Positions 6,601 through 9,600 of a DNA stretch of 64,000 nt are shown piece after piece. Location of the stretch: positions 1 through 64,000 of the forward strand of contig JAANDG010000352.1 in assembly GCA_036852015.1 (NCBI GenBank). Reading direction: 5' to 3'. The stretch is from Pelodera strongyloides. Taxonomy: Eukaryota > Nematoda > Chromadorea > Rhabditida > Rhabditidae. How positions within the stretch are numbered: position 1 is the first letter of the stretch; every line of letters begins with the position of its first letter. Under the pieces are notes generated by a model. It had not been told where the DNA came from, searched no databases, and was given only the letters and a program-made list of their open reading frames with translations. Both the position numbers and the translations under genes were made by a program.

Positions 6601-9600
6601 ATACCACCTGAACATTAAGCTTTAAAGACTGGGTTTTCTTCTAAAGTAATCCGTAGCTGACTATTTTTACGAAGAGCAGCCCTCAGTTCCTAGGGCCACT
6701 TTTCTGTTTAGTCGAAAATACACCGTAAGACTGCAGGAACATTAAAAACATTTATTTAAAAAAAGTGCGACGTTTCAGTTACTCTATTACCCATGTTTGA
6801 TTTTTCAGTTGCCATGTTTGATGTCCCTAGGGCCACTTTTCTGCGTAGTCGAAAATACACCGTGAAAAACTAGCGTCCAAAGTGCGATTTTTCAGTAACC
6901 CTATTACCCAAGCAGTGGAACGAAAACAGTATTATGCTTGATAAAAAATGTGGTGTGAACGATAGAGAGTGTAAAGAATAACTGTGAACGCCCGCATTGG
7001 AACAATTCCAGTGTTTTGCACCGTAAACCTGAGAAAATGTAGCACATCATTCTCACCTCCATCAACTAAAACTTTTCTCTAATCCCTAAAGCGGTATAAC
7101 ACCCGTTTTTTGAGACTAGTGCTGTATTCGCACGCCGTATTCCCAGGAAATAGATCCTATTGTAACACTTATGTTCATGTGTGTCGCCGCCAAGGCGACC
7201 TCATCTCCGTCTGCGCGCCCCACTTCGCCGGCGCGCCCCGCTGCTCGTCCTACTTCACCGCCGCGCTATATATAAACGAGGATCCGGCGGTCATCTCGCT
7301 TCTCTCCCTGTTCACAACTGTACCGCTTTGCTCCGTTACACCGAACTACCGTAATCCAACCCTCTCATTTATACTCTCAATAAACTGTTATTGCTCTGAC
7401 CGTTCTTGCTTAGCAACCCCTGCGTGGATATAGACTCCGCGAGCATTCTACACTACAAACACATTCTATATTCACCACAATTGGTGCACCGTCCGGGAAA
7501 CGAACCCGGGCCGCCCGCGTGGCAGGCGAGCATTCTACCACTGAACGACAATTTGCATACATATGGGGATGCATTTGTCCAAAATTCATCAAGAACCGGT
7601 AGTTATATCGCTTTAAAGTAAATATTAATGAAAGTAAAGCCTCACCCAAATGTACTGGAATATGCGGCGCATTGGCAATCAGACCTCCGTCTGGACCAAA
7701 AAGAGCACAGGAAAAATCAAGGCGTTCCTGAACATCAATACAAAATAAATAAAAATTTATTATTAATATTTGATAACATAAAAAGATGCACAGAAAATAC
7801 AATAGTAGTCAACCCTATAACTATAAGACAAAACCTCACAACAGATAGGATACTTAAATTTTTTGCTAGTTTTGCTCTTGTGCTTACAAAATTTTCTTGT
7901 GCCGACCTAGCAGTACGAAGTAACACTGGTTGAAACGGCAGCCTATATAAGCACTTGTTGAAACGTATCCCCAAAGGTTGTCACCTTGATATTGGTCGAT
8001 ATGGACGTTCTTTGGAGTACTCTTCCCATTTGCTCGGCTATCGACATGAATCTATTACTGAAGATAGCCAGCCGGATCGGATCAACCTGGATTTGGAATG
8101 TATTATATAAGGTACCTGTGTATAGTGTATATGATGTGATGAAGAAAAGTAGATAACATATATGCCTTAGCGCATTGGAGCAAGGGACGAAATAGTGAAA
8201 GACAGAGTAAAACATTTTTAGTTTGTTCCCTAGCAAGTACCATCGCGGTGACATAGGGATAAGGGACATAAGGTTCACTCTGGTTGACGTTCTTTCTTTT
8301 TATTGCTTGTTGACCAATAAAGCACTATTAGACTGATACCACTATTACAATTCAATTTCTTAAAAATAGAAAAAAAAATAACAGTACACTCACCTCAACG
8401 CCTGCTTGATAGTCAACTTTGGATGCTACCGTAATACGCACGTTACCCTCACCGCTTATCGTTGCAGTACACTTTGGCTCAATGACGATTGTGCTGAAAT
8501 TGTGTATTTCCTTTATTTATTCGTTTCGCTTTCTTTATATTTGTGTTACTGTTGCTTTACTCGACAAAACTGTACGTTCCATATATTTTTCTCATGTTGC
8601 ATGTGTGTGTGCGTAATAAATCATTATTATTATTATTACCAGCCGTTCGAAGAGCCCTATGGGCTCTTCTCCGACTGAAGGAATCGGCCTTCGGCCGATT
8701 GTTGCCCTACTTAAAACATACACACGTCTACAAAGTCATTTATGATTGGGGAAACGTATAATATGTGTCTGGATCTCCATTAGACAATGGTACCATGCAA
8801 ATTTGCCATTGAAGGCTATATGTAGAGCAGCTATATGTAGAGCAGCGGGCAACGTGCCATACGCTAGCATAGCTCAACTGGTAGAGTGTTGGACTGTGAA
8901 TCGAGAGTTTGTGTGCTGATGTGGGTTCGAATCTCGCCAGCGGCAAAGATTTTATGCTCTTTCGATCGAAGAATTTTCTTTATAAAGGGATTTCGTTGTG
9001 CACATAAAAACAAACCCGTGACAAACTCTTCTCCTTTATATAATAAGATTATAAAATAGGCAAATTGCACAATTTGGAAGAATATACTGAAGAAAACAAG
9101 AAAGTGCTATTTCCATAAACATTCACCTGTTGGCATCTATAATCAGTGCAGGTCCTTTGATAACATGACCCGCTCGGAGGTTTTCAATCTGGTAGAGTTT
9201 CGTATCTAAGGAGCCAGCCTGAAATTAGGAATAGATTTAACACTGCTCAGAAATGGACCGTCGTTCAAATAAATGGTCCCCCAGTGCAGGGCCGCGGACG
9301 CGGAACTCCCTTATTCTATGGTGTGCGTCAAAGTGTTACTCTTCACACATTACTGACACACTCCTTATGCGCACCATGACACGGGTTCTGAGGTCCACCA
9401 ACACGCAGCGAGCCCTCCCTGGCCTCCCCAGGGAACTAAAGAGTGCGTAGAGAGTGCTAGAGCAAAAGATATTCAGAGCGCTCGCGAGCCTAGGGAGATC
9501 TCCCTGTGTTGGTGAATATCGTCTCTGAACATACCAAACGCTCACCTCAAAATAGCATTCTCTCGTTTCTGCTACAGGAGGGTTCATTGGGTCTTCGGCC

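Follow-up and report, generated by a model that had tools for sequence, protein, structure and literature searches.

LTR-tRNA joins in the genome of the nematode Pelodera strongyloides as probable fossils of reverse transcription through the primer tRNA-Gly

A long terminal repeat (LTR) fused to a 65-nt complement of tRNA-Gly(GCC) was found in 64,000 nucleotides of the Pelodera strongyloides genome (GenBank assembly GCA_036852015.1, contig JAANDG010000352.1, positions 1 to 64,000 of the forward strand), the whole stretch of DNA analysed and referred to below as the window. The fusion is likely an integrated product of reverse transcription, in which the strong-stop plus strand was read through the primer tRNA and an unfinished cDNA was joined to it. 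The preliminary description had presented the fusion as a single fossil. The fusion itself is real, but with 88 joins in the genome it is one of dozens and thus recurrent. The CCA complement at the join, an excess of changes at tRNA position 58, a favoured end of copying at position 10 and, at some loci, LTR ends with target duplications are directly visible in the genome sequence.

The insert in the window

The insert consists of an LTR (TGTCGCC...CACCACA, 7182-7479), a spacer AT, TGG at 7482-7484 and the tRNA-Gly(GCC) complement continuing to 7546; all features of the insert and its flanks are given on the forward strand. At 7182 the LTR begins with TGTCGCCGCC, matching the start of the related copy L003 and of the solo LTR L004, and its other end is likewise as in these two. 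A start at 7161 had been assigned before, which was wrong by 21 bp and was rejected; judging by L003 and L004, 7161-7181 are flank. The remaining LTR features described earlier were present, with a TG start, the end ..CACCACA, a TATA-like box (TATATATAAA, 7267-7276) and the polyadenylation signal AATAAA (7379-7384), both signals read from the sequence. The two-base spacer and the tRNA complement starting from the CCA end were also as described, and alignment bore out the match of 65 nt, tRNA positions 76 to 10 including CCA (7482-7546), together with the changed base at 7500. This base is the single difference in the 65 nt, an A where the tRNA genes give T, i.e., a T58 instead of A58 in tRNA sense. 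The window thus combines an LTR end, a primer-binding site (PBS) with the CCA complement and a contiguous tRNA copy past position 58. The tRNA part is followed by GACA (7547-7550) and then by the right target copy, as seen from the sequence and the MITE comparison; the GACA is possibly a trace of a U5 end ..CACA. The insert has neither a coding part nor a second LTR. Within U5, 13 nt (GCGAGCATTCTAC, 7439-7451) are identical to a part of the tRNA complement, a match that was reached by none of 100 shuffles. Exact tRNA-Gly complement pieces of 12-13 nt 5' of the PBS were observed in the U5 of the window, L031, L032, L045 and L048; an extra pairing between primer and template or leftovers of earlier read-through are possible explanations.

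The earlier proposal that the insertion splits a MITE is supported. The right half of the MITE (7551-7617) matches a repeat found at no fewer than 40 other places in the genome, and the left half (7087-7181) aligns to the other half of these copies. The flanks were compared with eight MITE copies and 50 shuffles. The right flank gave a good alignment to all eight copies; the left flank aligned more weakly to their opposite half, surpassing all 50 shuffles in four copies and not in the other four, and was clearly aligned to L094 (score 79, best of 50 shuffles 55). Since the flanks overlap by exactly 5 bp in five of the eight copies, the insert would most simply comprise 7182-7550, flanked by a target duplication of 5 bp with one base altered since. 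The left copy reads ATGTG (7177-7181), the right copy ATTTG (7551-7555, the sequence of seven of the eight MITE copies), so four of the five bases agree. The view that no clear target duplication is present has to be corrected to a duplication with one mismatch.

ARAGORN annotates 7482-7554 as a tRNA-Gly gene on the other strand. Some LTR elements target tRNA genes, and both points speak for an older tRNA gene or pseudogene beside which the LTR inserted. This explanation was rejected as extremely improbable. The LTR end is directly followed by the CCA complement, which is missing from the genes: it was absent from all 13 tRNA-Gly(GCC) genes fetched, all with A58. A genome-wide pattern matched 119 places; among the 100 that were listed, all 23 gene-type rows gave the same result. 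Gene-type rows have AAT or CAT before TGCACC, and the 23 overlap with the 13 fetched genes. A genomic gene with T58 occurred in neither set. Throughout the genome the CCA complement directly follows U5 ends in 53 groups, which counters the idea of a genuine older tRNA gene, and copying ends preferentially inside the tRNA. In the window, the MITE continues on both sides of the insert. A eukaryotic nuclear tRNA gene has no encoded CCA, a conserved A58 and a full acceptor stem, none of which applies to 7482-7546. Because of the CCA complement, T58 and the missing 5' part, the evidence says that 7482-7554 is not a tRNA gene, despite the ARAGORN annotation.

Elsewhere in the genome, the LTR family of the window was represented by L002 and L003, each with a 12-nt PBS match, and by L004, with GGCTC on both sides. 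The match retained in the normal copy L002 corresponds to the first 12 nt of the tRNA complement at 7482-7546. An inherited 65-nt complement, for which the other copies were checked, was present in none of L002, L003 and L004; a long tRNA copy as a fixed feature of the family was rejected on the basis of these three members among the matches listed. TG..CA termini and a 5-bp duplication are common to the window LTR 7182-7479 (four of five bases) and L004. The pol domains of BEL/Pao elements were seen in a related join, L012, in which a 74-nt tRNA copy is followed by open reading frames with a reverse transcriptase, a Pao peptidase A17, an integrase and a phlebovirus-G1-like match. Gag was not recognised in the reading frames of L012; its second LTR is 99 % identical over 215 bp. 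BEL/Pao domains together with phlebovirus-like envelope domains were found in L012, L025 and L010. The elements behind the joins are probably of the BEL/Pao type, of which the window insert, having no coding part, is a candidate member. The envelope-like domains in these BEL/Pao-type elements include a phlebovirus G2-like match at L010:2499-3704 and a G1-like match at L012:123-2807.

Joins across the genome and the tRNA positions they record

A genome search with a 30-nt pattern including the CCA complement, allowing up to three mismatches, yielded 119 places compared to none for the reversed pattern; 100 of the 119 are covered by the listing and 19 lie outside. Exact matches to the pattern numbered 41, among them 12 with A, not T, at position 58. 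The 18-nt PBS was present exactly at 80 places. Six pattern hits without the CCA complement (L059, L061, L063, L071, L073, L075) were excluded, while five copies on contig C171 (L026), three on C154 (L036) and two on C91 (L060) were counted once each; on C772, two of six copies were fetched. The 88 aligned joins start with the CCA complement, four of them with one mismatch in it. They were reduced to 85 once near-identical junctions were collapsed and form 53 groups by U5 end. Of 63 joins, 34 had an AATAAA in the 100 nt preceding the PBS, compared to 458 of 4000 random windows. Two joins, L054 and L072, resemble tRNA-Gly(CCC). On contigs C857, C26 and C644, SL1-like RNA matches of full length form arrays, with scores under the family cut-off.

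A long PBS with tRNA copy may have arisen a few times and then been passed on by LTR families that transposed and recombined in the ordinary way, most joins thus being inherited. Such a copy is carried by the long element L012, L013 and L023 have one join at two loci, and L033 and L050 have several changes in common. Both pairs look related by descent, therefore the number of separate events is lower than 85. Against inheritance stand the 53 U5 groups, sequences after the tRNA part that differ between most joins, and near-identical clusters limited to three among the 88 joins. The tRNA copies vary in length from 18 to 74 nt, and the window's own family lacks the long copy in L002-L004. We consider this explanation unlikely and retain repeated read-through of the primer tRNA as the preferred reading.

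The base copied from A58 was changed in 23 of 76 events, compared to 150 of 4242 other cells (3.5 %, p = 1e-15); 18 of the changes were to A, three to G and two to C. Near-pristine copies had the same excess, with position 58 changed in 13 of 46 versus 32 of 2434 cells (p = 2e-14). In L105 and L027, one base is missing at or next to position 58. A misincorporation at this position had been suggested for the window, and a changed copy was present in 18 of 46 U5 groups, hence the change recurs. Miscopying opposite m1A would be the simplest cause, with A58 of the primer tRNA-Gly(GCC) probably methylated (m1A58). In HIV-1, m1A58 is the block that defines the plus-strand strong-stop DNA, and its loss lets plus-strand synthesis run beyond A58 (review PMC13191261). 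The excess at position 58 was unexpected, as a review on endogenous retroviruses reports PBS changes that do not fit the known tRNA modifications (PMC7472051). The genome encodes matches to PF08704 (TRMT61 type) and PF01746 (tRNA m1G methyltransferase), with the target base in the tRNA being putative.

At least 24 nt of the tRNA were copied in 70 events. In 14 of 85 events, copying had stopped by position 58, after 18 or 19 nt, a proportion in which short PBS copies are under-represented, the joins having been chosen for their tRNA match. The commonest length was exactly 65 nt, i.e., an end after position 10 (14 of 70 events, p = 9e-11 versus a uniform spread); position 1 was reached by eight of the 70. 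A position-10 end was recognisable in 36 events, of which 17 leave the tRNA there and 19 continue for at least one base, thus the stop is leaky. T was the first base in 10 of the 17 cases where copying leaves at position 9, a weak preference (p = 0.04). The stop at position 9 read from the window sequence therefore holds as a favoured, leaky end, and a methylation of G9 (m1G9) may be responsible for it. In yeast, tRNA-Gly-GCC is a substrate of Trm10 at G9 (PMC10704376). With the CCA complement, the changes at position 58 and the favoured 65-nt end all recurring, the earlier proposal that an aberrant reverse-transcription intermediate was integrated is supported.

Right ends of the inserts and a possible route of integration

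LTR ends with an exact 5-bp target duplication were identified for five of 22 long loci. The clearest closed insert, L011 (duplication GGAGT), comprises a 356-bp LTR, 65 nt of tRNA and about 12 nt of the LTR end, the last 10 exact, and is without a second LTR. In L019 (TATGT), 27 nt of the U5 end follow a shared GAACCAA. In L015 (CTTGG) and L018 (GTGTA), the tRNA part is followed by 679 bp and 155 bp, respectively, and then by a second LTR, 99.7 % and 98 % like the first. A search for exact 5-bp duplications among 18 further long loci revealed one clear case, L026 (ATATT), the remaining hits being chance-like. For most of the 22 long loci, a right end with an exact target duplication was not found, and a search at L012 yielded no target duplication. 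The locus's own 10-nt U5 end occurred again within 1.3 kb downstream in six of the 22 long loci, compared to two of 450 trials with foreign ends. Some loci have other arrangements. L010 has 45 nt of the U5 end and a 65-nt tRNA copy, followed by an inverted LTR related to that of the window, possibly a fold-back product. About 1240-1710 after the first PBS, L026 contains four tandem units of 132 bp inside one LTR-bounded element, each unit made of an internal piece, 21 nt of the U5 end and a 64-nt tRNA copy. A partial flank repeat was present at L014. L031 was rejected as a 99-bp flank duplication: the repeat runs over 259 bp to the edge of the fetched sequence, may be a second, truncated LTR, and was not counted as target duplication.

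Primer tRNA sequences have been found at HIV 2-LTR circle junctions (PMC5618025), and in L015 and L018 an LTR is present on either side. The joins could accordingly be remnants of such junctions with a retained tRNA copy, later inserted or recombined. This is very unlikely. The outer ends of L015 and L018 are LTR ends with 5-bp duplications, internal sequence lies between the tRNA part and the second LTR, and a second LTR is missing from L011 and from the window insert.

For the reading preferred here, a read-through strong-stop product joined to unfinished cDNA, we infer the order of strand transfers and what joined the ends. Plus-strand strong-stop DNA (U3-R-U5) would be copied on through the primer tRNA-Gly(GCC). 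The reverse transcriptase would pass the probable m1A58 with a wrong base and often halt at the probable m1G9. For the over-extended plus strand, the normal second strand transfer should be inefficient, since past the PBS its 3' end finds no pairing partner. An unfinished minus-strand cDNA may then switch onto the tRNA-copied end or get joined to it. As the minus strand starts at the tRNA, an unfinished one would always carry the U5 end. A joining of minus strands to the tRNA-copied end is suggested by the loci, which appear to form a series from very short to long, each U5-ended; the unfinished strand would have about 12 nt in L011, about 27 nt in L019, an LTR plus 155-679 bp in L018 and L015, and would reach into pol in L012. 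Such a product would begin with an LTR start (left) and finish with a U5 end (right), and its integration could leave a 5-bp target duplication. At L020, the 40 bp of flank that adjoin the LTR are repeated (39 of 40 identical) behind the tRNA end, from which 2 bp separate the second copy; in this case the integrase may have joined only the U3 end, with host repair closing the rest (one-ended integration). Avian retroviruses reportedly show aberrant one-ended integration with large duplications, and a murine leukaemia virus circle has reportedly been cloned in which the two LTRs are separated by a tRNA copy. These cases, with a tRNA-bearing or damaged U5 end and a long flank duplication, are comparable to L020, yet they stem from laboratory infections, whereas the loci described here are genome fossils.

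Known systems and meaning

The methyl group of A58 is thought to halt plus-strand synthesis at the right place (PMC13191261). In HIV-1 without m1A58 on tRNA-Lys3, the plus strand runs past position 58 and meets further stops at modified bases (PMC13191261), as it probably did in P. strongyloides; in contrast to this over-extension, the joins are germline insertions primed by tRNA-Gly, with position 58 miscopied and a favoured end at position 10. HIV 2-LTR junctions also have a copy of the primer tRNA after the LTR end (PMC5618025), there in circles, here in chromosomal insertions with target duplications. The primer over-extension sequence of lentiviruses and spumaviruses extends the tRNA match slightly past the PBS (PMC13191261). 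Four joins resemble it (L107, L113, L120 and L121), having a tRNA match to about 24-25 nt and a changed base at position 58, whereas in the long joins the tRNA copy continues past the anticodon arm as far as position 10 or 1. Helenus TRIMs, like the inserts described here, are short LTR elements that contain tRNA-like sequence and are flanked by short target duplications (PMC10886601). Their tRNA-like sequence is, however, inside the LTRs, both of which contain it; in the window the complement follows the single LTR as an extension of the PBS. Primer-tRNA read-through is known from HIV-1 experiments (PMC13191261) and tRNA sequence from 2-LTR junctions (PMC5618025). A literature search of titles and abstracts, mostly outside the subscription journals, retrieved no report of genomic fossils like these.

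The chances are about even that the joining of unfinished minus strands to tRNA-extended strong-stop DNA constitutes a regular second route of retrotransposition in P. strongyloides. Such a route would rescue cDNAs that stop short of the PBS and generate short new LTR elements, which seem to have spread once more (L013/L023); in the germline it would also archive the methylation of the primer tRNA. For genome annotation, the window is a warning, since ARAGORN takes such a fossil for a tRNA gene. The genome of P. strongyloides seems to keep dozens of records of a failed stop at A58, in which the wrong base and the stop that comes after it are preserved. If this is true, the past methylation of a germline tRNA becomes testable from sequence, and so does a rescue route by which new mobile elements would form from abortive cDNA.
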